From an uncultured Lachnospiraceae bacterium (GTDB lineage: Bacteria; Bacillota; Clostridia; Lachnospirales; Lachnospiraceae), in NCBI GenBank assembly GCA_946405625.1, contig CAMJHQ010000018.1, positions 1 through 64,000 on the forward strand: a stretch of 64,000 nucleotides of DNA. The letters run 5' to 3'. The notes under the pieces are model-generated. The model made no database searches and was not told the origin of the DNA. It saw only the letters and a program-made list of their open reading frames with translations. Below are positions 2,306 to 26,762 of this stretch, piece after piece. Each line of letters begins with the position of its first letter. Positions within the stretch are counted from its first letter, which is position 1. The translations under genes were made by a program, and so were the position numbers.

Positions 2306-2330
2306 TCATAGATGGAATTTAGATTTTAAG

Positions 2331-2362: not shown

Positions 2363-2398
2363 GCTTGTTAAAACTTCAGCAATCACCTTCCTTTTTTG

Positions 2399-4724: not shown

Positions 4725-4742
4725 AGAATATACCTGATCAAA

Positions 4743-5696: not shown

Positions 5697-5717
5697 TATA
5701 TAACCCCTCCTATACAA

Positions 5718-5998
5718 TACTAACTATAAATAACCCATAACATAATAACACAACATACAGTATAAATGCAAAATATAATCACTATATAAGGAGGTTTTCT
5801 GATTACTTCAGGAGGTTATATAATGGGAGGAATTGCTTTATAGATAAGAAATGGCAAATTTCTTTGGTAAATTCTTATAATAATCTTTGTTAAATACTTA
5901 CAAAATATTTGACTATGGGAAATAATGAAGTATAATTAGACTTGTTGGGAGATTATAGAAGGGTACCGAGGGCTTATTGACTTTACATTATTTATCTT
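5718..5998. other. Intergenic region at the start of the pilus locus
   Basis: AT-rich spacer between the divergent hydrolase gene and the first pilin. It holds two AGGAGG-like sequences (near 5789 and 5810) followed only by a six-codon ORF (ATG at 5823, stop at 5841), and the promoter listed separately. No larger gene is seen. Confidence 0.6.
5909..5936 (+). promoter_or_regulatory. Promoter of the first pilin gene
   Basis: TTGACT (5909-5914), a 16-base spacer and a perfect TATAAT (5931-5936) lie about 100 bases before the pilin start. A hairpin CCTCA/TGAGG (about 6007-6028) is present in the leader just before the start codon. Confidence 0.6.
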
Positions 5999-6037
5999 TT
6001 GTGGTGCCTCAGCTTTTTGGGATTGAGGATAATTAAG

Positions 6038-6550
6038 ATGAAAAAACAACATAAAAATGCCGGATTTTCGCTTGTGGAGCTTATCATTGTTATTGCTGTG
6101 CTAGCAATACTCGCTGTGGCTATAGCACTTGCGGTTGTTCATTATATAGAAAAATCCAGGCATGCTACTGATGTTGAGACTGCAGATGAGATAGCAAGGT
6201 GCATAGCAAATGAGCTTCTTGCGGATGATCTTGAGTTTAATGAAAACCCGTCTTTTACAGTCAAGGTTGACGGAACTCATACGGAGATTACAGCAGTCAA
6301 TATTCCGAATGCGGCAGAGCATATGAATAAGGTGTTTGAAGGCTTGAATATAGTGAATTATTCAACGCCGACCAATACGGGAGCCGATACTTGGACAAGC
6401 TCGACGACGGAGATGAAATGTAAATCATCAAAGACAGCATCGACTGAAACGGGAGATGACGGAAGCGGAAACAGTACGTTGAGAGAATATATTGTTGAGC
6501 TTGATTCGGAAGGAAAGATAGTTAAAAATATATATCGTGTTGAAGACTGA
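6038..6550 (+). CDS. Type IV pilin-like protein, first gene of pilus locus
   Basis: A 170-residue prepilin. The short basic leader MKKQHKNAG is followed by FSLVELIIVIAVLAILAVAI, i.e. a prepilin-peptidase site after Gly9 and the conserved Glu at mature position 5, then the hydrophobic assembly helix. The remaining ~130 residues are a small hydrophilic head with a Thr/Ser/Gly-rich stretch and no recognised domain. I chose the ATG at 6038, preceded by TGAGGA, because the upstream GTG-type start at 5999 would put a non-pilin extension before the leader. It has its own promoter and terminator, so it is transcribed apart from the giant pilins downstream. It may be a minor or alternative pilin; its role is inferred. 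Confidence 0.85.
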   Translation: MKKQHKNAGFSLVELIIVIAVLAILAVAIALAVVHYIEKSRHATDVETADEIARCIANELLADDLEFNENPSFTVKVDGTHTEITAVNIPNAAEHMNKVFEGLNIVNYSTPTNTGADTWTSSTTEMKCKSSKTASTETGDDGSGNSTLREYIVELDSEGKIVKNIYRVED

Positions 6551-6577
6551 TGCTATATTTGATACAGCTCAATATTC

Positions 6578-6605
6578 AGGGATCTCGAGGAGAGATCCCT
6601 TTTTT
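6578..6605 (+). terminator. Intrinsic terminator after first pilin
   Basis: Nine-pair stem (6578-6586 with 6592-6600) with a five-base loop, followed by six T (the last stem base included). It separates the first pilin from the giant-pilin operon. Confidence 0.9.
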
Positions 6606-6769
6606 ATTATATGGTAATTCTTTGTTTATGATCATTCTTAATATATTATTAAATTGGGCAGAATATTGATATTTTTCGCCGAATTTCTAATAGTAAAAAA
6701 CTAACAAATTTATTTGTTGATTATTCACAGAAAAAACACTGAATATCTTGATTTATATGTGATTTTTGT

Positions 6770-6799
6770 TTGACTCAGTGTATATAAAGATTATATAAT
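6770..6799 (+). promoter_or_regulatory. Promoter of the giant-pilin operon
   Basis: TTGACT (6770-6775), an 18-base spacer and a perfect TATAAT (6794-6799). Predicted transcription start is near 6806, just before the leader hairpin. Confidence 0.65.
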
Positions 6800-6814
6800 T
6801 ATAGTGTATAAATG

Positions 6815-6846
6815 CCTGTATTCTAACCCTTTTTATACAGGTTTTT
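6815..6846 (+). terminator. Terminator-like hairpin in the leader (possible attenuator)
   Basis: CCTGTAT (6815-6821) pairs with ATACAGG (6835-6841) across a 13-base loop and is followed by five T. It lies between the promoter and the first gene of the operon, where an attenuator would sit. The stem is short, so its strength is uncertain. Confidence 0.45.
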
Positions 6847-6904
6847 ACGAAGGAGAAATAGTTTTTATGTAGTTGGATATTTATGAAAGGATAAGCAGTA
6901 ATTT

Positions 6905-9900
6905 ATGAGGATTAAAAGTGCCGAAAACAGAATTACTGATACAAGAAAAGGCTTCACTATGGTGGAGCTGATTGTCGTGCTTGTAGTTCTTGCTATTATT
7001 GCTGCCTTCATTATTCCGGCTTTACTTGGCTTTATAGATAAGGGTAAAGAAAGCGAGTATAAGGCTCATGCAGAGGCAGCACTTGCCGCAACTCAGACTG
7101 CGCTTTCCGACCTTTATAATGATGCGAGCAGCAGTTATACACCTGTCAAGAGAGAAAGTACAAGAAAACTTGCAGGTGCGCCTGAAGATACTGCATTTAC
7201 AGTATGGACCGAAAAAGTTCTGTGGGATGGAAGAACTAAAGCACTCGAGAGTGAGATTGCTTCATATACGATAATCAAAGCGATATATAAAGAAAATGAA
7301 AATGTCTATATGTACTATGACGGTGCAGAGTGGACAAAATATGATAACGAAAGGGATGCCAAGAAAGCGGCAGTCGGAGTTGACGGAGAAGATAATACGA
7401 ATTCACTCGGAGATAATGTAATCTTTGTATGGCCGTATAAGAGAGATTATGCTTATCTTACGGATAAAGAGGGCAATCCGGATCCTCAGCAGTCTCCGGA
7501 CGGACCGATCATTAAGATTGTAACATTTCATACAGACAGATCCCTTCTTTCACAGGCATATTTTCAGAGAGTCGGCAAACCGGGAAGCTCGGTCAGGGAT
7601 TCTGTAAAAGTCGTTTTCTGGAAAAACGGGGATACGATCACATCGGATTATTGGGATGGTACTGTATTTACCGAGAACGAAAATTATCAGTATACATTTC
7701 ACACTTCTACAAGCGTGAACTTAGGCGGATGGCTCCCTAATTCCGAGGACAACCATGATTATATCTGTGTGACCAAGGATGACGTTATTGACTACATTTT
7801 CAATTTATCACCTGATGAGATTTCGGAGTTTGATTTTTATGCGGATCTCTATACCAACGGTAAGGTTGATGAGGTAACGCTCGGAAAGAGTCAGTTCAGA
7901 AGTTTTGTTGATTCATTCGGTTCGGATATAACAGGAATTGAAAAGGTTGAATTGTCTGATGATGAGATTCCTGAGATAGGTTCATTTGCTGAGAATTACG
8001 GAGCTCAGAGAGTTGATGATAACGAAAACAGAAGAGCTATGATCTATGCATGGGTCGATGGAAGTACTGTTAAATGGTGCACAAATGCACTTGTGGCATA
8101 TATGCCTGCTGACTGCAGTGATTTCTTTAAGGGCGGAGATAATCTGGTCGGACTTGATTTCAGCGAATTTGATTCTTCAAGAGTGACTGATGTGAGCGGA
8201 ATGTTTGCTGAATGCGAGAATTTACAGGAAGTTACACTGGGTGGCAGCCTTGCTTCTGCCGGTATTACGGATGTAAGTGAAATGTTTGCCGGATGTACCG
8301 CGCTTTCATCGGTTGATTCTTCAAGTATAGGCTCGGGAACACTTACATCGGTTTACGGTATGTTTAAAGACTGCAGCTCACTGACAGGAGATATTATATT
8401 TGCGGATTCTTTCAATACTTCTTCAATCGAGAGCTTCGAGGATATGTTTGTTAACTGCGGAGCTTCGTATATTGATGCAGGAAAGATAGATACATCTTCG
8501 GCGACGAGTTTAAAGAATATGTTCAAAGACTGCAGTAATCTCGGGGCACTTGATGTCAGCGGATGGAATGTATCTAAGGTCAGAACTCTGGAAGGTACAT
8601 TCAGAGGATGTTCGAATCTCAGCCTTACTGTAGACGGATGGTCACTGGGTGAGTGTACGAATTTAAATAATACTTTTAACGGATGCAGTTCTTTAGGTTC
8701 AATGGATATGAGTGCTCTGGGACTTTCCGGAAAGCTTACAGGCATGAACAGTACTTTCAGAGATTGTTCGGGACTTACAAGCATTACATTTCCTGAGAAT
8801 TTTGATACTACATCTGTATCAAGTATGGAAAACCTTTTCAACGGATGCAGCAGCATCTCAGAGCTTAATCTTATGATGTTTGATACGCGTAATGTAACAG
8901 GTTTTACAGGAATGTTTAACGGCATGACAAGTCTTACTACGATTTATGCAAGCCTTGACTTTGTTGTAAACAGTGATGATGTTGTGATGTTCGAAGGAGA
9001 TGAAAACTTATTTGGCGGACATACACATTATTCGGATGAATTAAGCAGTAAGGATACTTCTAAATATGCATGGATCGATATGAGAGATAAAAAACCGGGA
9101 TATTTTTACGGATTATCCTTCAAAGCGGTTCTGAGCAAGTCGGAATTCCAGAAGCTGTTTAAACAGGAAACAAGAGATGTTGTAAAGGTTGATTACGGTG
9201 AACATGAATTTGCAAGTAATGTCTTTAATGTTACGGATGCAGCATCTTCATCCACCGGTTCTTATATATATGCATGGAGAGACGGGACTACTGTAAAATG
9301 GTGCACAAATGCACTTATTGCATATATGCCTCCTGACTGCAGTAAGTTTTTCCAAAATAATACAAATCTTTATAAATTCAGCTTCAGAGGTTTTGATACT
9401 TCTCTGATCACAACGATGGATGACATGTTCGGTTGTACCGCAGACGGTACCAGATCCAATCTTTCCGAAATTGATTTCGGAGATGATTTCAGAACTGATA
9501 GTCTGACTATTTTAAGAAATGCTTTCAGACGATGCATAAAACTTGAGAGCCTTGATCTTAGCGGATGGGATGTAAGTAATGTCACGGATCTGACTGATAC
9601 ATTTGCCAGATGCAAGGGCTTAAAGGAAATCAATCTTTCCGGTTGGGATGTAAGCAATGTTAAATATATGCAAAGTACCTTCAGAAACTGTGAGGTACTG
9701 ACTTACCTTGATCTTAGCACCTGGCATACTGACAGTCTTGAAACTATGCAGCAGATGTTCTTTCAGTGTTATAAGCTTAAAACCGTAAAATTTGATAATT
9801 GGAATGCTGAGAATCTGCTTAATGTGTCCAGCACTTTTAACAGTTGCAGCAGTTTGGAAACAATCGATCTTAGCGGCTGGGATACAAGTAAAGTGAGATC

Positions 9901-10249
9901 TACAGCTAATATGTTTAATGGTTGTACTAATCTCAAGACTGTTGATCTGAGCGGCTGGACAACAGTGGGTATTGACGGAACCGTGGCAGTTTCGGTAACC
10001 AATAGTTCAGAAAAAACCTCAGGCTTTGAGAATATGTTTAATGGATGTTCTAAACTGACTACCATATATGAGACACAGGATTTTGTTTTTGTTAAAAATA
10101 TAAAAACAGGTAATATGTTTAACGGCTGCAATTCACTTGTCGGAGGTGCGGGAACGCAATTTTCTGCAAGCGGAAATGGAAATAAACCTGCATATGCAAG
10201 AATCGATGATCCGGAAAACGGAAAGCCGGGATATTTTACGATGAAATAA
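6905..10249 (+). CDS. Giant type IV pilin-like protein with BspA/DUF285 leucine-rich repeats
   Basis: This 1114-residue protein starts with a prepilin leader ending KG, then FTMVELIVVLVVLAIIAAF with Glu5 in place, so it should be processed and anchored as a pilin. Residues ~17-150 resemble the small major pilin of this locus (shared PALLGxID, similar helix, and YYDGAEW versus YFDGSSW). From about residue 370 come two tandem blocks, each opening with VKWCTNALxAYMPxDCS (residues ~389 and ~796), followed by many ~23-residue repeats of the type F-x-x-C-x-x-L-x-x-L-D-L-S-G-W-D-V-S, as in BspA-like DUF285 surface proteins that bind host or matrix ligands. There is no LPXTG or other wall anchor. The start is the ATG at 6905 (GAAAGGA upstream). 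A surface adhesin carried by the pilus is the likely role. Confidence 0.9.
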   Translation: MRIKSAENRITDTRKGFTMVELIVVLVVLAIIAAFIIPALLGFIDKGKESEYKAHAEAALAATQTALSDLYNDASSSYTPVKRESTRKLAGAPEDTAFTVWTEKVLWDGRTKALESEIASYTIIKAIYKENENVYMYYDGAEWTKYDNERDAKKAAVGVDGEDNTNSLGDNVIFVWPYKRDYAYLTDKEGNPDPQQSPDGPIIKIVTFHTDRSLLSQAYFQRVGKPGSSVRDSVKVVFWKNGDTITSDYWDGTVFTENENYQYTFHTSTSVNLGGWLPNSEDNHDYICVTKDDVIDYIFNLSPDEISEFDFYADLYTNGKVDEVTLGKSQFRSFVDSFGSDITGIEKVELSDDEIPEIGSFAENYGAQRVDDNENRRAMIYAWVDGSTVKWCTNALVAYMPADCSDFFKGGDNLVGLDFSEFDSSRVTDVSGMFAECENLQEVTLGGSLASAGITDVSEMFAGCTALSSVDSSSIGSGTLTSVYGMFKDCSSLTGDIIFADSFNTSSIESFEDMFVNCGASYIDAGKIDTSSATSLKNMFKDCSNLGALDVSGWNVSKVRTLEGTFRGCSNLSLTVDGWSLGECTNLNNTFNGCSSLGSMDMSALGLSGKLTGMNSTFRDCSGLTSITFPENFDTTSVSSMENLFNGCSSISELNLMMFDTRNVTGFTGMFNGMTSLTTIYASLDFVVNSDDVVMFEGDENLFGGHTHYSDELSSKDTSKYAWIDMRDKKPGYFYGLSFKAVLSKSEFQKLFKQETRDVVKVDYGEHEFASNVFNVTDAASSSTGSYIYAWRDGTTVKWCTNALIAYMPPDCSKFFQNNTNLYKFSFRGFDTSLITTMDDMFGCTADGTRSNLSEIDFGDDFRTDSLTILRNAFRRCIKLESLDLSGWDVSNVTDLTDTFARCKGLKEINLSGWDVSNVKYMQSTFRNCEVLTYLDLSTWHTDSLETMQQMFFQCYKLKTVKFDNWNAENLLNVSSTFNSCSSLETIDLSGWDTSKVRSTANMFNGCTNLKTVDLSGWTTVGIDGTVAVSVTNSSEKTSGFENMFNGCSKLTTIYETQDFVFVKNIKTGNMFNGCNSLVGGAGTQFSASGNGNKPAYARIDDPENGKPGYFTMK

Positions 10250-10292
10250 TAGTTTTAGATTATAGATGATGAATAGTTAAGTAGGGTTTGTT

Positions 10293-13200
10293 ATGGGTAG
10301 ACAAAGAACAAATAAACTTAATAATGTTCAGAATCGAGGCTTCACTCTCGTCGAGTTGATAGTCATTCTTGTGTTGCTTATGATCCTCATTACACTTGGA
10401 ATAGGCGGTATCTTTGCATGGCAGGATTGGACTCGCTTTAAGCAGGAAAATACCGGTGCCGAGAGTATATTCTATGCTGCACAGAATCAGCTTAATGAGC
10501 TGAATGCAAACGGTATGATGGATGATAAGATTTATCCGGTGCTGGAGTCCTTTACGGATAATCATTTATTGGGTACTCCTGAACAGCCGAATTATTTTGA
10601 TGGGGATACTATTTCCTTTGATCTGAGTGACGGCACAACAGAGTACTACAGATGGCTTTCGGACGGAAGTCTTAATGGAGCAATATGGAGAAGTCCGGCC
10701 GATGCGGCAGACATAGATGACCCGGACAACATTACCAATTATCAGGGAAATATATATTATCTTTCGGCTGACAGAGGCGACTTTGACAGATATCTGAAAG
10801 GCGAGCTTCAGAACTCCGAAGGTGACAGGGATGCGGTACTTCTCTTTGATATCATTACACCTTACATTTCAGATAAATCTGTTTTAAATGGAGCTATCTG
10901 GATGGAGTTTTCGCCTGAAGCAGCTCAGGTATTTTCCGTATGCTACAGCGACAGGGTTACAAGCTTTACTCATAACGGTGGAGACAGATCGGTTGAAAGT
11001 AATGCTTCATCCGCAAGCGTTCTTTTCAGACAGGAATCGAAAAGAAGAGATCTGCTTATCGGTTATTATGCGACTGAGTCAATGTCGGTTCCGTTGATCG
11101 GAAAGAGTAAGGGAATGACAACGGGACTTGAGCTTCGTAATGATGAAACTCTGAGTCTTGTTATTAATGCCGGTGAGTCAATAGATACATCGGTTGTATA
11201 TGATGTTGTTGTATATAACGGAAATGATAATAATGCCAAGAACAGGCTTATGTCATTTTCTCTTAATGCTGCTGATATTCCGGAACTTACCGGAGAAAAT
11301 AAACCGGTAGCAAATGCTGAAATGGCAGGTAAGAATCCGGTTACTGTTAATGCGACTTTCTATGAGGGCGTTTATAAATCATCTACACCTAAAGAAATTC
11401 GTATTCCGGTCTGGAAAGATCAGGAGATTGATGAAGGAAAGACTGTCTGGAAGATTCATGTAGTTCTTGATGCTGCTGATGTTCAGGCTCAGTCATGCCT
11501 TTATGTAGATCGTAAGAATCCGGATGAAAGCTTTATCAATACATACAGCTTTTATGGTTTCGGCTTCACCATGAACAGAATAAATAAGATAAGCTGTGGA
11601 GTTTCGGCTGTAAAAGACGGTGACATCAGAGGAGAAGAAAATCTTACAAATACCGAAAGCCCGACATTTGCAAATGTTGAGACAAGCGGTGGAGTTAAGC
11701 TTTATACAATAAAGAACGGAAGACATCTCTATAATGTCAGATTCGAGACAGATTATAAGGTCGGAACAGGTGACAGAACATTTAAGCTTGCCAATGATAT
11801 TGACTGGAATGAATTCGTAAACAATCCGGCAACAGATGATGGATGCAATTATTTTCTCAACTCATATGCAGCAGGTGGAAACGAGGAAGGCATCAATTTT
11901 GAAGGACTGGATTATTCCGCAAACGAAATAGATAATGTGCTGGCTTCGGGAATCGATGTGACCGATACAAGAAATTACAGATTCCCTGGCTTTAGAGTAC
12001 TTGCTGAAGGCGATACATTTACCGGCCTTAAAAAGAAGGGTGAAAATGAAGGAGATCCGAATGAGGTTTACTGTATAAGTAATCTCCGAATAGCTTTCAG
12101 TGCAAATGTATTGTATGGCGTATATGGTCAGATCAACAGAGATTTCTGGAGTAATTCCTCATATACCATTTCAAGTTTCGGAAGTTATACGGAATATTCG
12201 GCATCTCATCCGGTGCTTGCATCGGTCAGAAGAGGTGAATGTCCGGTCGGACTTTTTGCGGAAAATAACGGCTCGATCGAGGATCTCGCATTGAACCATC
12301 ACAGAGTTATCGGAATGGAGCTTCTGAAGGATTACAGAAACAGCTCTTCAACAGGAACATTGGTATATACCAATATGTCAGGTGGTTTCGTTGGAAATAA
12401 CTTGGGATATGTTAAGGGACTTACTCTCCGTAACGTTAATTCCATTACGGATGAAGATACTATCGTAAATGAGCCTGCTGAGAATTATTCCAAGGTCAAC
12501 GGCAAAACAGATGTCGGAGGAATCGTAGGACGTGAGTCATGGGCTCATGATACATATGAAGGCGCAACTGCGGAACTTATTAATCTTGCTAATTATGGCA
12601 GAGTTTCCGGTATGGAAAAGGTCGGAGGAATAGTAGGTAATGCTTATGTTATAAGAACTAACCATAATAAGGTTCAATTGGATGGTAACATACGTGGAAG
12701 ACTCAGCTATTTTGACGATGGTTATACATTATTCGGAAAATATAATAATAATCTTGAACTTACAAATCTGAGCGAGTTGAAGTCATTATCCGGACACGGA
12801 ATTAAAATGATCGATCATATAGTTATTAAGAACTGTGTGAACAGAGGACTGGTATCCGGTGATGATCTGATCCATGATGAGTATCTGGTTTATTACGGAG
12901 GAACTTATAATTCTCTGACATCAAACAGTCTTTACAGATGCTCCTTCATTGGAGGTATAGCAGGAATAGCGATTGACGGTATATTTATGGATTCGAGATC
13001 TGACGGCTATACGGGATTCGCAAGCGATCTTGGAAGAATTGTTATTGAAGATTGTTCTTCATACAGACTCTATTCACCGACGGAGATAAAAACTCTTGAG
13101 TCGAGTGAAGGCAGCGGAGCTTTCCCGAACGGACGGATCAAGGATATGATCCAGCATGATTATTACGTCGGAGGACTTGTGGGTTACTCAAGACTTGTAA

Positions 13201-16200
13201 CCTATAACAATTGCTCAAATGCATCTGTCGATGCGATTACTGAGGAAACAGAGGGCTATAAGCCTTTCGTATTCGGACGTAATTATGTCGGAGGAATGTT
13301 CGGATGTTATGATACATCTGTAATCAATGGAGACGGTGCAGTCAACACTGTCGGAAACAGAACATATAATGCGGTAAATTATATCAATACTATCGGTGTC
13401 ATGCATGTCGGAGGATTTGCCGGCGGAGCGGGAATCGGAGATGACATACGTCAGGGATTTTATTTGTCTTATCCGTCATCGAATGAGGGCTCACAGGTTT
13501 CTCAGGTACAGGGCCAGATTACAAGAAGTGTCAGAGATGTTTGTAACAGGGCTGTCGTTTTGGGCGTGAGAAGAGACAAACTCGACTATGCGAAGGATTC
13601 AGGAATTGTTTATCTTCAGGATAGAACAATAAACCTGGGAGTTCTGGATGCAAATAACAGAGTTCTTAATAATATGCCGGATTCATGCATAGGCGGAGTT
13701 CTTGGTAACTCGCGTTTTATAGGTGTTAATCTTGATAATATTCAGGATACGGAGACGAAGAATTATGCTCTGAAGCTTATCGGAATTGACGGTACTTTTG
13801 ATACAGCTGACTATGACGACTGTATGGATGCTGACAGTTATTCCTATTACGGTGGAAATGCTGTAGGCGGAATAGTAGGAAAGCTTATCGGAGCAGGCGG
13901 TATAGGACTTAATCCTGAAAACGATTCTTCATCAACCATCAGTGCGGTTGTTTATGGTGAAGATTCTGTAGGCGGATGTGTTGCCGGATCAAGTAATGAC
14001 AACAGAACGGTTCAGAGAATAACAGTAAAGAACTCGCTGATAATCGGAAGAGATATGGTCGGAGGATTATCAGGTAAGAATCATTACACAGTAGTCAAGG
14101 GAGTTGATTGCGGTAATTACAGAGTTTACGGAAGATATTCCGTCGGTGGTGCCGTAGGTTCGATAAACTATGATAATAATAGTGCTGAAATATATATTAC
14201 AAAAGAAAACAATGATATGGTTGAGGTCAGAGGAAAAGCATATGTCGGCGGAGTTGCCGGAACATGTCTTTCTTCAGCCGGCAGTCTGAATGGAAGAATA
14301 GAAAACGTTTCAGTTGAAGCGGAAGAATTCGCGGGTGGAATAGTCGGAGCAGCCTATGGAAACAATAATAACAGAAAGAATTACAGCGTTAATAATATCA
14401 GAGTAAAAACTTCTGATATTACTGTTACTGCTGAAAATGCATTTGCCGGCGGATTCATCGGACTTTATGCATTTCATAAGGGGCGCGGAGCAAATAGTGG
14501 CGTTACACAGGAAAACGCATTTACGATAGCAGAAGATATTACGGAACCAAAACAGGTTTATATGGATGTTACAGATTCGAAACTGGATACATGTTATCTT
14601 ATAAGACTTGCCGAAAATATGAGTAATACATCATCGGCCGTAGCGAATGTTGTAAACAGTGAAACCGCAGAAAGCGGTAATTGGGGATTAAATCCTAATC
14701 TGGGAAATGAAACGGTTACGTCTTCACAGATGACATTTGACGGTGCGATATTTGCATCTACAAATGTATCGGTCGAGGCTCCGCTTTTTGCCGGCGGAGT
14801 GTTCGGATATATTCCGAATGGCCTGAATGTAAAGTTTTCTGTTTCAAACAAATCGGTTGTAAGCACAAAGGTTACGGCTACGGGACCGGCAGTAGATGCA
14901 CTGTTTACTGATGATCTGATTGTAGGTGTTCAGGACAGTAAGTTCCTTTATTCAGGAGGAATAATAGGTCGTGTTCCCGATAAAGTTACAATCTCCGGTG
15001 CGTCATATAACGGAGTGATAACGAATCCTGATTCGAATTACTCAGGTCAGATTGCGGAAGTAAATGACGGACGTCTCGAGAAATGTATAATTAAATCTTT
15101 CAATAACGAAACTACTAAAAACGGATATATGGGAGGTCTGGTTGGATTAAACAGCAACAATGGTGTTATTTCAAGTGATAATGTTATAGAGTCCAAAGCC
15201 AGTTTGACAGGAAGTAAAGTACTTGGCGCTTATATGGGAAGAAACCTTGCGGATGTCTATCTGTCGCAGGTTGTTACATATAGTGAAAATCCCGATAATC
15301 ATGTGGTTACATATGAGTACGGACCTTGGGGCAATTGGAATAATATCAGCGACAGTAATCTGGTAAGCTTATCTGTCGGAAATGATGTCCAGGGCAGTGC
15401 GATCGGATTCCTCATAGGTGAAAACTTCGGAACCATAGATATAAGGGATTCTTCACTGGAGTCTACAAAGATTTCCGGTGCCGAATATGCAGGATTATAT
15501 GCGGGAATTAATCGTGGTACCGGTGAGATATATGACAGCCGTATTAAGTTTGATTCAAATAATCAGCCTAGAGAAGACAGTACAAGAGTAAATGTAGGTG
15601 TTGAAAATGTAATCAATTCCAAAGCTAAGCTTACAGTTAAGGATGTTGATGCTGTTGGACTTGTTACCGGAAAGAACACCGGCAAGATTGAGTATATAGT
15701 AACATCTTCGAATACGGTTGCATTTGGCCTTTCGGCAACCGGCGAGACTTATATGGGCGGAATAGCCGGAGTAAACGGTGACGGGCCTGATGACGGTGTT
15801 ATCAGATACTGCTTTAACTATATGAATATAAGCGGAGGAGATAAGACCGGAGGTATAGTAGGTCTTTCTGACGGAGTATCGGTATTGCAGCAATGCGATA
15901 ACCATGCAACGTTAAATGCACGTGAGGTTGCAGCCGGAATAATCGGTTGGAGCAGTGAAAAGGTTACATCGGATTACAGTAATGAAATATCCGATTGTGT
16001 TAATACAGGAAATATCAGAACAGATGATGGTTCTGACAGAGCCGGAATCGCAGGAAAGGTATTATACGGAGAAGTTACTCTGTGCAGAAATTATGCACCG
16101 GATCTTGATTACGGAATCTGTGCAGGAGATGATGACGGAGTAACATATTCCAAGAACCTTGAAGCAGGTGGACTCAACGAAGGCATTGAAGGAAATGATA

Positions 16201-17681: not shown

Positions 17682-17684
17682 CAG

Positions 17685-18868: not shown

Positions 18869-18871
18869 TAC

Positions 18872-19540
18872 ATGAAGGAAGCTCTCAGGAAAAAACATAA
18901 CAACAAAGGTATGACGCTGGTTGAGATGGTGGTCAGTTTTGCACTTCTCAGCATTCTTGTTGCGGCTTCTACGGTTATCATATCAAATGTGACGGCTCTT
19001 TATTATCGGGTGAAAGGCGAGAATTACTCACGTCAGATAAGCAATATTGTAATAACTAAGGTTTCATCCGAAATAGCCGGGGCAAAGTTCAATCAGAGAA
19101 ATTCAGCCATGAGTCCGAAGATCCATACAAAGGTAGACGGTGCTGATGTTGATGGAACGGCTATAGAAATATATGATCGTACGGATACAAGGGTTTACAT
19201 TTATGCAAAAGACGGCATTCTGGTACTAAAATATCCGAAAATATCGGATGAAGAAAAGCCTGAGAACAACAGAGTCTCAAATGAATGGAAATATGATCAG
19301 AGTATCTATAATGACTTTAGTATAAAGGAATTATATTTTGTGCAGGCAAATACTGCAGATAATGAAGAGCTAGCCGCAGAATACGGACTTACGGGAGTAG
19401 ATCCTACAAATTATCACGATAATGTTGTAGCAGTCTATATGACCTTAACAAGTCCGAAATACGGGGAGTTTAAGGTTTACAGATATGTGAAGATCTACGA
19501 AGCTCCGGAGACGGGGTTCACAATTGATATTATTGAATAA
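18872..19540 (+). CDS. Minor type IV pilin-like protein
   Basis: A 222-residue prepilin-like protein with leader MKEALRKKHNNKG and mature start MTLVEMVVSFALLSILVAA, including Glu5. Its length and the position after two smaller minor pilins resemble the GspJ/PilW-type subunit. The head includes beta-rich sequence near VYIYAKDGILVLKYPK but no named domain. It starts three bases after the previous gene, so it is co-translated. No frameshift or odd composition is seen. Function is inferred from the leader and the neighbours. Confidence 0.8.
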   Translation: MKEALRKKHNNKGMTLVEMVVSFALLSILVAASTVIISNVTALYYRVKGENYSRQISNIVITKVSSEIAGAKFNQRNSAMSPKIHTKVDGADVDGTAIEIYDRTDTRVYIYAKDGILVLKYPKISDEEKPENNRVSNEWKYDQSIYNDFSIKELYFVQANTADNEELAAEYGLTGVDPTNYHDNVVAVYMTLTSPKYGEFKVYRYVKIYEAPETGFTIDIIE

Positions 19541-19594
19541 TAACCCGATACGCTTTATAATTAAAGGATAAGCAGGGGTTGGATTAATGCTTAG

Positions 19595-20038
19595 ATGGGG
19601 TATAGAATGGGGCGACAGGAAGAAAGTATTAAATTTGGGCGAGTCTTAAAAATAATCCTTATCATAATAGGTGTACTGATAATCTGTGCAGCTGTTTTCT
19701 TTTCATTCTATATTCGCGTCAATGCCAAGCAATGTCTTCGAGATGCGAAGAATGTTCATATGGCACTTAATTCAATTGAGATTGAGTATTATGCTCAAGG
19801 TAAATCCATATATGATCCGACTAGGTATTCGGGACTGGCACCGGGAGTTCAGGATGCGGTTTCGAATCTGGTTGAAAATGAGGGTCGATACAGACTTCTC
19901 GGATATGATGATCAGAACCATCGTATAACCGTACTTCAGTATAGAAACGGTTTCTATGAAGTGAATTACTACGCTTCTCCGACAGAAGAGGTCTGGGAAG
20001 TAAACTATCTGATGAATATTTATCATTTAAGTGATTGA
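19595..20038 (+). CDS. Single-pass membrane protein in pilus operon, no prepilin leader
   Basis: A 147-residue protein with a basic N-terminus, one hydrophobic segment (about residues 19-41, VLKIILIIIGVLIICAAVFF) and an extracytoplasmic part. After the membrane segment it resembles small pilins in layout (a helix-like stretch CLRDAKNVHMALNSIEIEYY, then short beta segments), yet no G-F-x-x-x-E cleavage site is present. Start choice is uncertain: ATG at 19595 is listed, but an in-frame ATG at 19607 has a better spaced GGGG. It sits between the minor pilins and the prepilin-peptidase-like gene. I do not recognise a family; an accessory pilus assembly role is a guess from context. Confidence 0.65.
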   Translation: MGYRMGRQEESIKFGRVLKIILIIIGVLIICAAVFFSFYIRVNAKQCLRDAKNVHMALNSIEIEYYAQGKSIYDPTRYSGLAPGVQDAVSNLVENEGRYRLLGYDDQNHRITVLQYRNGFYEVNYYASPTEEVWEVNYLMNIYHLSD

Positions 20039-20084
20039 TATAGTCATCTTACTGATATAAATGGGGAATTGAGGAGAACATGGG

Positions 20085-20501
20085 ATGTTTTGGCTGACGG
20101 CATCAATAATTGCGGCAAGAGTATTGATTGAAATTATATTCTTTGCAATAGGTGCGTCGATCTTTTCCTTCTTAAATGTGGTAATATACAGGCTTCCGCG
20201 GCATATGGGTTACGTAGAAGGAAAATCCATGTGTCCGACCTGCAAGCATACATTATATGCAAAAGATCTTATTCCGATTATTTCTTGGATAAGTCTGAAA
20301 GGGAAATGCAGATATTGCGGCGAGAAGATATCTGTGAGATATACGGTAGTCGAGGTGATCGGAGGTATAGCGGCGGTTGCGGCGACCTTGATCATCGGGA
20401 TTAATCTGTGGGCGTTGGCTGCATTTCTTCTGATAGGAGTATTTACTGTAGCTATATGTATTATATATGACAGATTCACTGCTATGAAAAAAGGGGAATA
20501 A
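20085..20501 (+). CDS. Stand-alone N-terminal domain of prepilin peptidase (PilD-like)
   Basis: The 138-residue protein matches the N-terminal DiS_P_DiS domain of A24 prepilin peptidases: a first membrane segment ending in FLNVVIYRLPRHM, then CPTCKHTL, KDLIPIISW, KGKCRYCG and YTVVEVIGG, with the two CxxC pairs that bind zinc. Family members are about 220-260 residues and carry a C-terminal aspartyl-protease half with a GxGD motif; here the protein stops after the next membrane segments and pilC begins two bases later, so that half is absent rather than frameshifted nearby. It may act as the methylation domain or be a non-catalytic partner. The start is the ATG at 20085 after GAGGAG; the ATG at 20080 leads only to a five-codon ORF. 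Confidence 0.85.
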   Translation: MFWLTASIIAARVLIEIIFFAIGASIFSFLNVVIYRLPRHMGYVEGKSMCPTCKHTLYAKDLIPIISWISLKGKCRYCGEKISVRYTVVEVIGGIAAVAATLIIGINLWALAAFLLIGVFTVAICIIYDRFTAMKKGE

Positions 20502-20502
20502 T

Positions 20503-21708
20503 ATGGCAAGCTATAAGTATAAGGCTAGAGATGAAGAAGGAAATGTTATTTCCGGAAGAATGAAGGCTGTTGATGAAAATGACCTTCATGAAAAATTGAA
20601 AAACGATAATATGTTTCTGCTTGATCTGAAGGAAGAGACATCGACCAGGAAGGGTACCAAGAGACTTAAGCTGGACAGACTGGCTGATTTTGCGAGGAGT
20701 ATTTCGAAGCTTCTCGGAGCCGGAGTTACGCTGGTGAGGGCACTCGGTATTGTTTCCGAAGATGAATCGATCTCCGAAAAGGAAAGAGAAATATATCAGA
20801 ACGTTCTTAAACAGGTAAAATCCGGAATGACATTTTCGGATGCACTTGAAGAGCAGGGAGATACCTTCCCGACACTGTTTGTCAATATGATAAGAAGTGC
20901 GGAATCGGGTGGAAATCTTGATGAAACCTGTATGAATATGGCGAATTATTACAGCAAGGAATACAGGATAAATCAGAAGATTTCCAGTTCCATGGTTTAT
21001 CCGAAGATTCTGACAGTCCTTATAGTTATAGTTCTTATAATAATTATGGGATTCGTTCTTCCACAGTTTGAATCGTTGTTTGCACAGATGGAATCGCTGC
21101 CTGTCACAACACGGATTCTGATGGGAATCAGTAATTTCGTGGCAAATTACTGGTATCTTCTCATTTTCTTCTGCGTGATCCTCTTTATGATCATAAAGGT
21201 TGTTTTCGCAATTCCTTCCGTGAAGCTTTGGAGGGATAAGATGGAACTCAGGATCCCGAAGATCGGCAGACTGAAAAAGATAATATATACGGCCAGATTT
21301 GCAAGAACGCTTTCAAGCCTTTATTCTGCGGGAATTCCGATTATCACATGCCTTCAGATTGCCAAAGCAACAATTGGAAATTCATATATTGAATCTCAGT
21401 TTGAAAAGCTTATTGCGGATGTACGTTCCGGTGAAACACTTAGTTCCGGAGTGGATAAAATAGATGGATTTGTCAAGAAGCTTCCATCCTCCATTAATAT
21501 CGGTGAGGAGACCGGAGCACTTGATCATATGCTTATTTCCATAGCTGATCAGATGGATTACGATTCTGAGATAGCTACGGAGAAGATGGTTGCAATGCTT
21601 GAACCTGTGATGATCGTTATTATGGCAGTTGTGGTCGGATTCATAATGATTTCGATAATTCAGCCGATTTACGGTTCATATCAGGCGATTGCCGATAATA
21701 CCATGTAA
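20503..21708 (+). CDS. pilC: Type IV pilus inner-membrane platform protein PilC (GspF family)
   Basis: This 401-residue protein has the N-terminal MASYKYKARDEEGN motif and two copies of the T2SSF helical domain (about residues 60-185 and 265-390), separated by membrane segments near residues 165-190 and 215-240, with a last one near 370-390. PilC anchors the assembly ATPase to the membrane and passes pilins into the growing fibre. Length and domain order are normal. It has AAAGGGG before the ATG and begins two bases after the prepilin-peptidase-like gene. Secure as a T4P/T2SS platform protein. Confidence 0.95.
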   Translation: MASYKYKARDEEGNVISGRMKAVDENDLHEKLKNDNMFLLDLKEETSTRKGTKRLKLDRLADFARSISKLLGAGVTLVRALGIVSEDESISEKEREIYQNVLKQVKSGMTFSDALEEQGDTFPTLFVNMIRSAESGGNLDETCMNMANYYSKEYRINQKISSSMVYPKILTVLIVIVLIIIMGFVLPQFESLFAQMESLPVTTRILMGISNFVANYWYLLIFFCVILFMIIKVVFAIPSVKLWRDKMELRIPKIGRLKKIIYTARFARTLSSLYSAGIPIITCLQIAKATIGNSYIESQFEKLIADVRSGETLSSGVDKIDGFVKKLPSSINIGEETGALDHMLISIADQMDYDSEIATEKMVAMLEPVMIVIMAVVVGFIMISIIQPIYGSYQAIADNTM

Positions 21709-21724
21709 TAAGGGGGATAGCGAA

Positions 21725-23188
21725 TTGAGTGTAAGTGTATATCTAAATAACCTCCAGGTGCAGATAGTTATCGGCACCCGTGGTAAAAAGGGAAAATTTC
21801 AAAACTCAATTATAGTTGAAGCTCCTGAGGGCAGTATCATAAACGGAATGGTTATGGACTCTGACAGCTTTACATCATTTTTGAGGGGAGTATGGGCTCA
21901 GTATAAGCTTCCGAAGAAGGATGTTCATCTTGTTGTAAACAGCAATAAGATTCCCGGAAGACTGGTAGATGCGCCGAAGCAGAGCCCTCAGAAGATGAGA
22001 CAATTCCTTTCGAGAGAACTGTCTGATATGCAGAGAGAAGATGAGAAGTCCATTATCTGTTTTAATGAGCTTGGTGGTGCCGAAAAGGGTATGGCGAAGC
22101 TGTATGCGGAGATGGTACCGCACAATCTGGTTAAGGATTATCTGGATATTTTTGCGGCTGCAGGTATTGCTGTTAAAAGCATAACTTCTGCCGAAGGAAG
22201 TATTATAGGCCTCCTGGAACAGACTGTTGCAAAACAGTATAAGACCTTTGTACTGCAGATTACCAACGGTAACATAGTTACTAACATTCTCTGGGTAAAT
22301 GGAATATTCAATTATATCAACTCTACCAGATTGTTTAATGATCATGGTACGGAGGCATATTATCAGGACTGCGCAAGATCTCTCGGAAATATGAGGCAGT
22401 TTATGATGGCTAATAAGCTTGAGTCCGAAATTCAGAGAGTTTTGATAGCCGGTACAGAGCGTAATGATATAAGTTTCTATGGTCAGTATGTTGCAGATGA
22501 AGGTATTAATGCACCTGTAGAAATTCTGTACCAGGGTCTGGCAGCTTCTTCAGTGCAGAGCTTTGAAGCCCAGAAGGCTATTTTCGCAGTCAGCGGCCTT
22601 TATGACATGGGCTGGGAAAGCAACTTCGTTAACAAATTCAATGCGAAGTCGGAAGAAAAGAAGATGGATCCGGAGCTGAAAAAGGCGATAGTTACTATCG
22701 GAATCGTTACCGGTGTTATGTTGGCCATATTTGCCGTTACCTTATTCCTCAGGCTTATGAGACAGAAGGAGTACGACGCATTGGTAGAATATAATACCGA
22801 TCCGTCGGTCGTTGCTCAGGCGAGTTTGTTTGATACTTTGTCCGTCAAAAGAGATGCCCTTGCTGCGCAGGCTAATTCCATCAGAAATGTACTTGATACG
22901 ATCGAAACATATCCGATACTTAATGATGAGATCATAAAAGTTCTCGAGGATACCGCCCAGGGTTATGCAAAGATTGAAATAGGAAGCTTTGATGCGGAAA
23001 ATGGTCATGTAAATGTTACGGCTACGGCAAACGATGTTGAGAAGATAAACCAGTATATAGACAGACTTGAGGAACAGGAAATATTCAAAGAAGTTACCTA
23101 CTCCGGTTACAACATGCTTCAGGACGGAACCTGGAGTATAAATGTTAAATGTATCTTTGCTGAGAGTGTTGGAAGGGAAGGTGAATGA
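21725..23188 (+). CDS. PilM-PilN-like fusion protein
   Basis: In this 488-residue protein, residues 1-310 form a soluble domain with weak similarity to the actin-like PilM, a single membrane segment follows (about residues 323-346, KKAIVTIGIVTGVMLAIFAV), and then a PilN-like coiled and beta-rich extracytoplasmic part. In most organisms PilM and PilN are separate proteins joined through the PilN N-terminus; here they are one chain. I chose the TTG at 21725, seven bases after AGGGGGAT (21711-21718); an upstream ATG at 21689 lies inside pilC. The next gene is PilO-like, matching the M-N-O order. The fold assignment is by layout and position more than by strong motifs. Confidence 0.75.
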   Translation: MSVSVYLNNLQVQIVIGTRGKKGKFQNSIIVEAPEGSIINGMVMDSDSFTSFLRGVWAQYKLPKKDVHLVVNSNKIPGRLVDAPKQSPQKMRQFLSRELSDMQREDEKSIICFNELGGAEKGMAKLYAEMVPHNLVKDYLDIFAAAGIAVKSITSAEGSIIGLLEQTVAKQYKTFVLQITNGNIVTNILWVNGIFNYINSTRLFNDHGTEAYYQDCARSLGNMRQFMMANKLESEIQRVLIAGTERNDISFYGQYVADEGINAPVEILYQGLAASSVQSFEAQKAIFAVSGLYDMGWESNFVNKFNAKSEEKKMDPELKKAIVTIGIVTGVMLAIFAVTLFLRLMRQKEYDALVEYNTDPSVVAQASLFDTLSVKRDALAAQANSIRNVLDTIETYPILNDEIIKVLEDTAQGYAKIEIGSFDAENGHVNVTATANDVEKINQYIDRLEEQEIFKEVTYSGYNMLQDGTWSINVKCIFAESVGREGE

Positions 23189-23189
23189 C

Positions 23190-24053
23190 ATGAAGAGTAA
23201 TCTTACCGAAAAAGATAAACGACTGTTACTTTTCATGTTTCTCTTCGTAATAGTTGTTGGAATTGGCTATTGGGGTATATTGCCTCAGATAAAGCAGTTC
23301 AACACTCTTGAAAACGAGATTGATAAGGAAACAGTTAAACAGTCCATAAATGAACAGAAGGTTATGAATCTTTTCATTGTCGAAGATCAGTGTACAGAGT
23401 ATGAAGAGGCAATGGCTGAAGATAAAACCAAGTTCTATGATATGATGACTGAAGCGGATATAGACCGTATGCTTACATCAAATGCGGTTTCAAACGGATT
23501 GGAAGTGTTCAGCTTCAGTGTTAATATACCGGATAAGCCTTCAAGCAGAATGGCATATATTTATTCGGATCTGTATCAGCGCCAGCTTGAATACGAAGCG
23601 GAAAGAAAGCTTACAGATAAGGAAATATCCAATAATAAGGACGATGAAGAGCTCTTAAATGAAGCATCCGGTAAAAAATCCTCAAAAGACAAAAAAGAAG
23701 AGAAAGTAGACATTATGAAGCAGGAGGTGGTTGATGTATTTGGTAATGCAGATGCCATCGGAGTTAATACGGACATTTATGCTGCACGTGTTACGATATC
23801 TCTCGGAGGAGATGAGGCTGCGCTTCACAGATTCCTTAATCAGATGATAGACAGTGATAAGAAGGTACTTATAACAGCTTATAACTGGGGAGAATATAAA
23901 ACTACCAAGGAAGTAAAAACAAAGTCTACAGAAGATGATGAAAAGGAAACCACTACAAAGGAAGTGGTGATCAAGAAGTCTCTTACAATAACGATGGAAT
24001 TCTATATGTGTAAGCAGATAGAAGAAACATCGGCTGAAGCAGAGGAAGAATAA
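23190..24053 (+). CDS. PilO-like pilus alignment protein
   Basis: A 287-residue protein with a short cytoplasmic N-terminus, one membrane segment (LLLFMFLFVIVVGIGYWGIL, near residues 12-31), a coiled-coil stretch, a charged Lys/Glu/Asp loop (about residues 145-175), and a C-terminal ferredoxin-like part ending in TITMEFYMC. This is the layout of PilO, which pairs with PilN and links PilM to the outside. I chose the ATG at 23190 (GGAAGGGAAGG upstream). It starts one base after the fusion gene's stop. The low-complexity loop is larger than usual. Assignment rests on layout and gene order. Confidence 0.75.
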   Translation: MKSNLTEKDKRLLLFMFLFVIVVGIGYWGILPQIKQFNTLENEIDKETVKQSINEQKVMNLFIVEDQCTEYEEAMAEDKTKFYDMMTEADIDRMLTSNAVSNGLEVFSFSVNIPDKPSSRMAYIYSDLYQRQLEYEAERKLTDKEISNNKDDEELLNEASGKKSSKDKKEEKVDIMKQEVVDVFGNADAIGVNTDIYAARVTISLGGDEAALHRFLNQMIDSDKKVLITAYNWGEYKTTKEVKTKSTEDDEKETTTKEVVIKKSLTITMEFYMCKQIEETSAEAEEE

Positions 24054-24168
24054 CTTCCAGAGATGCTTCTGATAGGATTTTTAAATGTTTTTAGTTTGTA
24101 AACTGAGGTAAGACTGCCGGTTTCTGACAGATTATCTTACGGATTGGTATGACAGTGGGGATTACAGG

Positions 24169-25854
24169 ATGGATGCTAGAAATAACAGAAACATTCGAAT
24201 AGGTGATGTGCTTAAGGAATTCGGTTATGTTACTGATGAGCAGGTTGGTGAAGCAATAGCTTATCAGAAGGAGCATGAAGGCGTAAGACTCGGCGGTGCT
24301 CTTATTGCGCTGAATTATATTACGGAACGTCAGATGCTTGAGGCTTTAGGACAGAGACTGAATTACCATGTTGTTAATATATCGGATCTGACGGTTGATA
24401 TTAACGCTGTAGAGATGATCCCTCGGCCGTTGGCTGAAAAATACAGTATTCTTGCTTATAAGATTGAAGATGAGGTGCTGTATATTCTTACCAATGATCC
24501 TCTGAATTTCTATGGAATTGAGGATGTCAGACAGGTTGCGGGAACGGAGCTTCATATAGAGCTGTGCGAAAAACAGACCCTTGATAATGCGATAAATTAT
24601 TATTATTCTGAGGTTTCTGCAAGAAAGGCTGCCGATAAGGCATCCAAGTCAAGCTTCGCCGAAGAAGACGAGATAGAGGTTAATATCGAAGAGGGAGATG
24701 ATGATACTCCTATTATCAATCTCCTTAATTCACTGGTTGTAAGAGCCTACAACTCTAATGTTTCGGATATTCATATTGAGCCGTTTGAGAAGTTCACATC
24801 CGTTAGAATGAGAATGGACGGTGTTATAGTTGACTTCATGACCTTGCAGAAGAATATCCATAATTCACTTATCGCACGTATCAAAATACTCGGAGATCTG
24901 GATATTGCAGAGAGGCGTGTTCCTCAGGATGGACATTTTAAGACTACGATAGATGGCACTCCGGTAAATGTCAGAGTTTCTGTTATTCCGACCGTATTCG
25001 GTGAAAAAGCGGTTCTGAGACTTCTGGCCTCAGCTGCAACAATCGATAATTCGGGAACATTCGGTATGAGTGAGAAGAATTATCAGATTGTAAAGGCGAT
25101 GCTGAATTCTCCGAACGGTATTGTATATGTAACAGGACCTACCGGTTCCGGTAAATCAACAACACTCTACATGATGCTTTCGGAACTGTCGAAGAGAGCG
25201 GTTAATATTTCGACTATTGAAGATCCTGTAGAGAAGAATCTTCCGAAGTTAAATCAGATGCAGGTTAATACGACTGCTGGACTTACCTTTGAAATCGGCC
25301 TCAGAGCGCTGCTTCGTCAGGACCCTGATATTATCATGCTCGGTGAGACAAGAGACGCAGAAACGGCTTCTATCTCGGTCAGAGCGGCTATTACAGGTCA
25401 CTTGGTGCTCTCCACACTCCATACAAATGATGCGGCATCGTCAGTAACAAGACTTGTAGATATGGGAATAGAACCATATATGCTTGCCAACTCGCTTGTC
25501 GGAATCATAGCACAGAGACTTGTCAGAAAGGTCTGCCCGGACTGTGGACAGTGGGGGGAAATGACCGATGAAGAGGAGAGAGTAGTCGGCAGACGCCTTC
25601 CGAGGGTCATGCATAAGGTTGGATGCAAGAAATGTAATAATACCGGCTATAGAGGCCGAATCTCGATTCATGAGATACTTCCGATAGATAAGCCTGTCAG
25701 AAAGCTTATATCTGAGGAAGCGACTTCAGAAGAGATCAAAGAATATGCAAGACGTGAGCTTGGAATGCTGACATTGAAAGAAAGTTGCATGCAGTTGATT
25801 GAAGCAGGAATAACAACTGTTGAAGAACTTGTTAAGGTTGCATATTATGATTGA
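24169..25854 (+). CDS. pilB: Type IV pilus assembly ATPase PilB (GspE family)
   Basis: This 561-residue hexameric ATPase powers pilus extension at the membrane platform. Residues ~10-75 hold two MshEN-type motifs (RIGDVLKEFGYVTDEQ... and RLGGALIALNYITERQ...), the module that binds cyclic di-GMP in MshE and some PilB. The Walker A motif GPTGSGKST is near residue 323, Walker B-like DPDIIMLGETRD near 384, and a zinc site CPDCG / CKKCNNTGYRGR near 454-490, all as in PilB. A GTGGGG ribosome site precedes the ATG. It is the last gene before a terminator; no PilT retraction ATPase is in the window. Very secure. Confidence 0.96.
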   Translation: MDARNNRNIRIGDVLKEFGYVTDEQVGEAIAYQKEHEGVRLGGALIALNYITERQMLEALGQRLNYHVVNISDLTVDINAVEMIPRPLAEKYSILAYKIEDEVLYILTNDPLNFYGIEDVRQVAGTELHIELCEKQTLDNAINYYYSEVSARKAADKASKSSFAEEDEIEVNIEEGDDDTPIINLLNSLVVRAYNSNVSDIHIEPFEKFTSVRMRMDGVIVDFMTLQKNIHNSLIARIKILGDLDIAERRVPQDGHFKTTIDGTPVNVRVSVIPTVFGEKAVLRLLASAATIDNSGTFGMSEKNYQIVKAMLNSPNGIVYVTGPTGSGKSTTLYMMLSELSKRAVNISTIEDPVEKNLPKLNQMQVNTTAGLTFEIGLRALLRQDPDIIMLGETRDAETASISVRAAITGHLVLSTLHTNDAASSVTRLVDMGIEPYMLANSLVGIIAQRLVRKVCPDCGQWGEMTDEEERVVGRRLPRVMHKVGCKKCNNTGYRGRISIHEILPIDKPVRKLISEEATSEEIKEYARRELGMLTLKESCMQLIEAGITTVEELVKVAYYD

Positions 25855-25885
25855 TTTACCTCAATAATTGTTTTGAAAATATCCC

Positions 25886-25917
25886 AAAGGCTGTCGTCAA
25901 ACAGATGACAGCCTTTT
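25886..25917 (+). terminator. Intrinsic terminator after pilB
   Basis: AAAGGCTGTC (25886-25895) pairs with GACAGCCTTT (25907-25916), ending in a short T-run. It closes the giant-pilin operon. Confidence 0.8.
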
Positions 25918-25920
25918 AAA

Positions 25921-26309
25921 TCTATTGTCAGACAATGATTATGTCAAAATTCACATAATTTCGATAATTTTGGCAAAAAAATATTTGTGTATTTTTTGTG
26001 ACTTTGTAAATAAATTACCAATTTGATGTGATAAATTGTGAATATTTGCACTTCAAAAAATGGTCAAAATGTGTACTTTGTGATTGAGTATGAATGATAT
26101 TGACAAAGAATGATTGAATTAATTATGAAATAATGAAGATATGTATAGAATGCACAATGAGGTTTGTTAATTATTGTTCGTTTGGTAGAATTGCACAATT
26201 AGTTTACATAATAACTTGCAAATCGGGGGTTTAGTTGTTACAATTACATTAACTTATTCATGAGAGAGTTAAGTTAAATCAAACAATTATTAATAAGGAG
26301 GACAAACTT
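25921..26309. other. Long AT-rich control region of the major pilin gene
   Basis: About 390 bases without a gene. It has several promoter-like pairs (TTGACA at 26100 with TATGAA 18 bases on; TTGTTA at 26164 with TAGAAT; TTGCAA at 26216 with TACAAT), a palindrome AATTG-CA-CAATT (26189-26200) at the middle -10 site, and a strong AAGGAGGA ribosome site at 26295. Confidence 0.5.
26216..26244 (+). promoter_or_regulatory. Most likely promoter of the major pilin gene
   Basis: TTGCAA (26216-26221), a 17-base spacer and TACAAT (26239-26244). It is closest to the gene and gives a leader of about 60 bases. Two upstream candidates may add to expression. Confidence 0.5.
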
Positions 26310-26762
26310 ATGAAGAAGAACACAAATAAGGGTTTTACCCTCGTTGAACTTATTGTCGTACTCGTTATCCTTGCTATCCTGGCAGCGATTTTAGTACCTG
26401 CCCTTCTTGGATACATTGATAGAGCCAGAAAGAATCAGGTAGTTCTTAATGCTAAGTCTTATCTTACAGCAGCTCAGGCAGAGATGTCATCTCTCTACGG
26501 CGAGAAGAAAGAGCCTAGCAAAATATCAGATCGTGCAACTACAGTTCAGGCTACAGCTGATGTTGATGCTGCTAAAGAAGTAAAGGTTGGATGCAAAGCT
26601 GCATTCGATGATTCAAAAGGCTTCACAAAGGACAATCATGATGCATTTGTAATTTCCTATGTACTTTACAAGGAAGGCGATGTTACATTATACTTCGACG
26701 GATCTTCATGGAGTGAGACAAAGCCGGCTGATCCAGCAAGTGGTTTATTCTCAATCAAATAA
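26310..26762 (+). CDS. Major type IV pilin
   Basis: This 150-residue prepilin has the classic leader MKKNTNKG and mature start FTLVELIVVLVILAILAAIL with Glu5, a long N-terminal helix (PALLGYIDRARKNQVVLNAK), and a compact head ending VTLYFDGSSWSETK. A strong ribosome site (AAGGAGGA, spacing about eight bases), its own promoter region and its own terminator suggest high expression, as expected for the main fibre subunit. The first part of the 1114-aa giant protein resembles this whole protein. No cysteine pair for a D-region loop is present (one Cys only). Calling it the major pilin is inferred from size and expression signals. Confidence 0.88.
   Translation: MKKNTNKGFTLVELIVVLVILAILAAILVPALLGYIDRARKNQVVLNAKSYLTAAQAEMSSLYGEKKEPSKISDRATTVQATADVDAAKEVKVGCKAAFDDSKGFTKDNHDAFVISYVLYKEGDVTLYFDGSSWSETKPADPASGLFSIK

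Follow-up and report, generated by a model that had tools for sequence, protein, structure and literature searches.

How large can a pilin be and still belong to a type IV pilus (T4P)? The T4P machine usually takes subunits of some 15–25 kDa. The question arises in an uncultured Lachnospiraceae bacterium of the gut or rumen (assembly GCA_946405625.1; host genome of 3.3 Mb in 70 contigs), where we analysed positions 1–64,000 of contig CAMJHQ010000018.1, the stretch called the window below. Its T4P locus (5999–26762) comprises an eleven-gene operon flanked by two separately placed small pilins, and the operon opens with two far larger proteins:

6905–10249, plus strand: giant pilin 1, 1114 residues, 123 kDa; prepilin leader, N_methyl, DUF285/leucine-rich repeats (LRR)
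10293–17681, plus strand: giant pilin 2, 2462 residues, 266 kDa; prepilin leader, N_methyl, GLUG-like motifs

We consider it fairly probable that these giants are modular pilins of extreme size that the T4P machine processes and assembles, presenting them at the tip as adhesins or receptors.

Both giants begin as pilins

The preliminary description of this DNA had credited both giants with a prepilin leader and Glu5, and this is borne out: each is an intact single open reading frame (ORF). The leaders are 16 residues long and end in Gly, followed by FTMVELIV in giant 1 and FTLVELIV in giant 2, with Glu at mature position 5 in both. Pfam N_methyl scored 27.0 bits for giant 1 and 21.7 bits for giant 2, above its curated cut-off of 21.2. 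The Glu5 column was invariant among the aligned sequences of giant 1 (11/11) and giant 2 (16/16). The latter alignment held 16 of the 24 proteins found in the giant-2 place, each whole in one stretch; the cut copy of genome G024 and a 213-residue pilin were left out. A further alignment took in the initial part of 21 proteins. We regard the giants as very probably processed pilins, judging from these sequences.

Similarity to pilins continued when alpha1N was removed. Ten major-pilin heads combined into a profile then recognised seven of the 11 giant-1 heads at E≤0.04, the window copy at E=2.6e-5; giant-2 and J-like heads gave nothing, even at E≤1. Two small pilins from other genera matched giant-2 modules, namely the 213-residue pilin of G183 (best E=1.6e-12; window copy E=1.9e-8) and a 204-residue pilin of G386 (best E=1.1e-11; window copy E=3.3e-9). 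Since these matches to small pilins lie beyond alpha1N, each giant contains a genuine pilin module of about 215 residues. The modules of giants 1 and 2 look to be of different types.

We next considered how else such proteins could be held at the surface. Among 47 giant ORFs chosen by a leader motif requiring Glu5, none showed an LPxTG-like motif among its final 60 residues (one, from G420, is cut, leaving 46 true ends), and none had a 19-residue stretch past alpha1 with a mean hydropathy of at least 1.8 (maximum 1.78). A wall-anchored or sortase-linked surface protein, named beforehand as the refuting alternative, is disfavoured by this lack of sortase-type C-termini.

No wall-anchor motif was seen, and alpha1N was the sole hydrophobic anchor detected in these 47 ORFs. 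This would suit processed prepilins that are kept in the membrane, where alpha1 serves as the anchor, the long parts cross the wall and no filament forms; a part of at least 1000 residues would presumably also burden an assembling filament. We nevertheless find this explanation unlikely, since homology of the giant modules with stand-alone pilins extends past alpha1N, Glu5 is invariant in both alignments and a small pilin takes the giant-2 place in G183. The giants are probably assembled into a filament.

Repeat regions grafted onto the pilin modules

In giant 1, the leader (residues 1–16) is followed by a major-pilin-like module to about residue 215, a variable region (215–400) and a DUF285/LRR region from about residue 400. 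The LRRs reported earlier were recovered with Pfam DUF285 (E=1.6e-80) and LRR_5 (E=9.6e-18) and with the NCBIfam PARCEL repeat (E=6.7e-55). All 11 giant-1 proteins scanned contained both DUF285 and N_methyl, and a PDB search with the giant-1 profile matched pilins and LRR proteins.

Giant 2 has the same 16-residue leader length, a pilin module to about residues 215–225 and a conserved second region to about residue 640. Beyond these lie GLUG-like motifs (696–1852), a Ser-Gly-Glu linker (2003–2035) and a lineage-specific end. The earlier claim of GLUG repeats is upheld in part, by motif enrichment, with 18 copies of GG[IVLFM]xG at residues 696–1852 versus a mean of 0.76 in 200 shuffles, but not by the Pfam Glug model (PF07581), which gave no match to the window copy at E≤0.05. 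Since this model does match 5 of the 16 giant-2 proteins scanned, the window copy not among them, 'GLUG' is a fair yet unproven label. N_methyl was present in 15 of the same 16 proteins. Conservation drops from the N- to the C-terminus: in a comparison that took in ORFs of three batches of loci, residues 225–640 matched 24 other proteins and residues 1995–2462 matched two. A PDB search with the giant-2 profile returned pilin starts only (best 8pfb, E=3.9e-8, profile positions 19–108).

Giant pilins recur across Lachnospiraceae and beyond

The search of relatives for the same gene order, proposed in the preliminary description, found both giants in that order, with the same kinds of gene downstream, in 10 of 12 same-genus loci (window included). 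In the other two, giant 1 is missing (G017) or the contig ends within giant 2 (G024). This recurrence in the same order argues against chance, and recurrence across many genomes, including the single-contig assemblies G002 and G005, rules out a chance or misassembled ORF. Among 25 genomes of the window genus, 13 had an open frame of at least 1300 residues matching giant 2. Of 12 loci from other genera, 11 contained a giant-2 homologue followed by a K-like pilin, and in the twelfth, G183, the 213-residue pilin filled the place of giant 2. Homologues reached 4186 residues in these loci and ranged from 204 to 7662 residues overall.

On a wider scale, a profile of the N-terminal part matched 66 of 396 Lachnospiraceae genomes, in 55 of 280 genera, at E≤1e-12. 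Pilin-headed frames of at least 1000 residues were counted by hand in 46 of the 396, the rule being a match that starts at profile position ≤15 within an open frame of that length. Thirteen of these 46 genomes had contributed rows to the profile, G394, G398 and G060 show a stop inside the listed match, and G224 was not flagged by the leader motif scan. The window giant 2 as a single query matched 14 of 298 genomes of the family at E≤1e-10. A class-wide draw gave matches in 28 of 393 genomes, and five of those outside the family had pilin-headed frames of 1908–3001 residues (hand count).

The 7662-residue ORF (812 kDa) lies in G189 (G189:C19:308000-346500) and has a prepilin leader and 80 GG[IVLFM]xG motifs. 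It follows PilB, PilT and a small pilin, and scores E=7e-35 against the profile in its first part. In five species of genus g340, which belongs to another family, the giant-2 homologue has 483, 501, 2446, 2780 or 2994 residues. In G482 (C24), it is the J-like pilin that is giant (at least 1285 residues, running off the stretch) and similar to the LRR part of giant 1; the giant-2 homologue beside it has only 483 residues. The length range in g340 and this giant J-like pilin point to repeated gain or loss of grafts.

Giant 2 adjoins minor pilins of a putative tip complex

The order of the operon genes after the two giants is three minor pilins, a 147-residue protein, an A24_N-only protein, PilC, a PilM/N-like protein, a PilO-like protein and PilB. 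These and the remaining features of the locus are:

6035–6550, plus strand: small prepilin, 171 residues; promoter-like site at 5909–5936, terminator-like hairpin at 6578–6600
6770–6799, plus strand: promoter-like site upstream of the giant operon; TTGACT-18-TATAAT, 11 of 12 consensus bases, a consensus match only
17685–18416, plus strand: K-like minor pilin (GspK/PilX position, no Glu5), 3 bases past giant 2; typed by order and missing Glu5
18386–18868, plus strand: I-like (PilV type) minor pilin; type presumed from order
18872–19540, plus strand: J-like (PilW type) minor pilin; type presumed from order
19595–20038, plus strand: 147-residue protein with a single N-terminal hydrophobic stretch
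20085–20501, plus strand: A24_N-only protein (methylase-associated half of a prepilin peptidase); two CxxC, no GxGD
20503–21708, plus strand: platform protein PilC/GspF; T2SSF match
21716–23188, plus strand: PilM/PilN-like assembly protein; PilN matched weakly (E=0.006), short of the curated cut-off
23142–24053, plus strand: PilO-like assembly protein, named by position; no Pfam match
24169–25854, plus strand: extension ATPase PilB; MshEN and T2SSE
26310–26762, plus strand: probable major pilin, 150 residues; terminator-like hairpin at 26805–26828

The ORF after giant 2 was the K-like pilin in all 23 giant-bearing loci (12 same-genus and 11 other-genus; the 24th locus is G183), at a distance of −62 to +87 bases. 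Read by eye, Glu5 was missing from 26 of 26 K-like pilins. K subunits of tip complexes lack Glu5 (PMC9934059), and both modular pilins and such K-type subunits have been placed at the tip of a pilus that assembles from tip to base (PMC8179133, PMC9934059, PMC10191384). From this published placement and the K-like gene without Glu5, we infer that giant 2 belongs to the tip complex, a location that we favour only slightly over others.

With PilB, the platform protein, PilM/N/O-like proteins and the major pilin, the locus holds the core of a monoderm T4P. It would encode a type IVa-like pilus; PilO is named by position, the PilN match is weak and the a/b subtype label is provisional.

A model for giant pilin assembly

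We propose that the A24 peptidase encoded on contig C12 of the same genome, described below, would cleave the leaders of the giants, whereupon the platform protein and PilB would insert their pilin modules into the filament via alpha1. Giant 2, beside the K-, I- and J-like minor pilins, would join the tip-initiating complex and project its repeats as a long rod, which probably folds as a beta-solenoid. Giant 1, with its major-pilin-like module, would be built into that pilus too, either at its tip or along its shaft, and there display the LRR domain. The C-terminal parts might bind a ligand such as plant fibre, mucin, a host protein or another cell. That the giants act as adhesins or receptors seems reasonably likely, given the kinds of repeat, the variable ends and the precedent of Streptococcus sanguinis. 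The earlier statement that the adhesin is the pilin itself thus stands in its pilin half, through the leader, the module homology past alpha1 and the operon position; the adhesin half is plausible.

A more far-reaching version of this model joins two statements. The pilin found next to K-I-J in many Clostridia would be one that elongates for display, with homologues of about 200 to more than 7600 residues (up to 812 kDa) depending on the lineage, and a second, major-pilin-like giant would decorate the shaft in the window genus, giving two giant receptors, one at the tip and one on the shaft. We put this forward tentatively, as doubtful when taken as a whole.

Several observations weigh against tip-displayed giant pilins. 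The beta-solenoid of giant 2 and the module borders are predicted, and 4 of the 11 giant-1 heads gave nothing with the major-pilin profile. The window genus is not uniform, with the giant seen in 9 of 13 genomes of at least 90% completeness. In more distant loci, similarity seldom extends past the first part of the pilin, and the neighbouring genes are different. In four of the five g340 loci the homologue is followed by the 147-residue gene and PilC, not by K-I-J, and in G139 the K-I-J genes lie upstream of the giant. No labelled K-like gene follows the giant in G189, G059, G338, G234, G358, G226, G158, G368, G432 or G224. The names I, J and K are themselves assigned by order and Glu5: in the PDB, profiles of the K-like and I-like sets hit no pilin at E<0.1, that of the J-like set hit pilins in alpha1 only, and Pfam PilX_N matched 1 of 20 K-like members (E=0.008). 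Lastly, the operon contains no PilT, and the one PilT-type ATPase of the genome adjoins another PilB on contig C5; PilT in the locus is an accessory not needed for assembly.

The missing PilT of the operon also fits a secretion piston, in which a short pseudopilus would export or release the giants rather than display them on a long pilus, and the core parts found here (T2SSE, T2SSF) are indeed common to T4P and type II secretion. Released substrates should have no need of the pilin modules that the giants keep, however, and PilT stands directly before the giant in seven other-genus loci (G266, G067, G166, G049, G321, G420 and G397), which suits a retractable pilus. We judge a piston improbable.

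Giants compared with known modular pilins

BspA/DUF285 (PARCEL) surface proteins resemble the LRR part of giant 1, but here the LRRs are carried by a pilin. We take the entry IPR026906 to be that of BspA-type LRRs. Since it figures in the 15 most frequent architectures of modular pilins (PMC8179133), the joining of LRRs to a pilin is in itself probably not new. Modular pilins bearing adhesive domains were described in 2021, comprising more than 1,200 proteins in 264 architectures; the extreme by domain number has 860 residues and 12 domain copies (PMC8179133). The contrast initially drawn with PilY1, in which adhesins are separate from pilins, is therefore out of date. For the same reason 'undescribed system' was too strong a term for what is an extreme variant of known modular pilins.

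PilB and PilC of S. sanguinis share with the giants a class III leader, a small pilin module, a C-terminal graft and a monoderm host (PMC8179133, PMC9934059). For these modular pilins a role in adhesion has been shown and a tip complex proposed. They carry one or two grafted domains (PilC, 52.8 kDa), as against 123 and 266 kDa, long repeat arrays, giants in tandem and relatives of up to 812 kDa. The PilC/PilY1 of diderms is likewise a very large tip effector with variable modules (PMC8179133, PMC9934059) but, unlike the giants, not a pilin. PF05567 (PilY1) had no match in eight genomes, in a search that lacked a positive control and in which the controls were silent too.

ComZ of Thermus thermophilus is a pilin with a large beta-solenoid and has been argued to sit at the tip (PMC6561018). 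Its solenoid of about 380 residues lies inside the pilin fold, whereas the repeats of giant 2 come after the pilin module, span more than 1000 residues and are predicted to fold in this way. As ComZ was shown to bind DNA (PMC6561018) and giant-2 repeats are of a kind suggesting a solenoid, the giants might serve in DNA capture or another non-adhesive receptor role, but this is very unlikely, given that giant 2 is more than four times as long as ComZ (554 residues) with a lineage-specific end and that giant 1 has LRRs of surface-protein type.

Within a limited open-access literature we found no account of pilins of 1000–7600 residues, although the supplementary dataset of PMC8179133 might list such proteins. 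The same literature yielded no pilin elongating repeatedly beside minor pilins, no two such giants in one operon and no second giant on a major-pilin-like module. Priority for pilins of such scale is likely, not established. Should the giants be assembled, the T4P machine can handle pilins much longer than the 860-residue case (PMC8179133). This would bear on how the pilus base and the peptidoglycan admit a subunit of 100 to 800 kDa, and gut Lachnospiraceae, some of them cultured, would gain a dedicated and testable class of surface receptor.

Organization and transcription of the locus

The locus contains 13 plus-strand genes, seven of which are pilins or pilin-like. The preliminary description had counted nine or ten pilus genes, too few for 11 in the operon plus the pilins at 6035 and 26310. 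To the left lies a hydrolase gene (4743–5717, minus strand) and to the right a gene for what we take to be a YfhO-like membrane protein (26814–31361, minus strand).

We take the gene row 6905–25854 to be a single operon behind the promoter-like site at 6770–6799. Promoter-like sites around this one were no commoner than in shuffled sequence (5 observed versus 6.9), so the support for it is its position. Control by c-di-GMP riboswitches in clostridia is a reason to look upstream of the operon; no riboswitch reached the gathering score in the window, and positions 5650–7000 gave one chance-level match. The small prepilin at 6035–6550 is apparently its own transcription unit and was the best match of no other ORF across 24 loci. 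The gene for the 147-residue protein separates the pilins from the peptidase or platform genes in 17 of the 24 related loci.

Peptidase and methylase halves are separate genes in the window genus

In all 12 same-genus loci the operon peptidase gene encodes the A24_N half only, with both CxxC motifs and no catalytic GxGD; the G015 copy has a GNGD in its tail, which is in the wrong place and was not counted. A separate A24 protein with GxGD and without CxxC was present in five of the five genus genomes examined. In the window genome it lies on contig C12 (6776–7645). No other A24 match there reached E≤0.001, so this protein most likely cleaves every prepilin, which would leave the operon protein as a methylase. 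Of 24 peptidase copies from other genera, 18 have both CxxC and GxGD, four (all g340) have GxGD only, one (G505, also g340) has CxxC without GxGD and one (G158) is cut. The two halves of the prepilin peptidase thus appear to be separate genes in the window genus.

A 2023 review describes the methylation and proteolysis domains as parts of one enzyme and the purpose of methylation as a mystery (PMC10191384). A narrow search of the literature found mention of a peptidase without the methylase half but no separate methylase half. With the two halves in separate genes, the purpose of pilin N-methylation can be approached in a natural setting.

Other pilus genes lie elsewhere in the host genome. 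Contig C5 carries a second T4P core (269–4490 of the stretch 1–12000), with PilB, PilT, PilC and, where the contig ends, a pilin motif; a Tad-like ATPase is found on contig C9. Orphan prepilins are scattered over contigs C1, C5, C14, C24, C29, C30 and C51, some with an alpha1 like that of the pilin at 26310.

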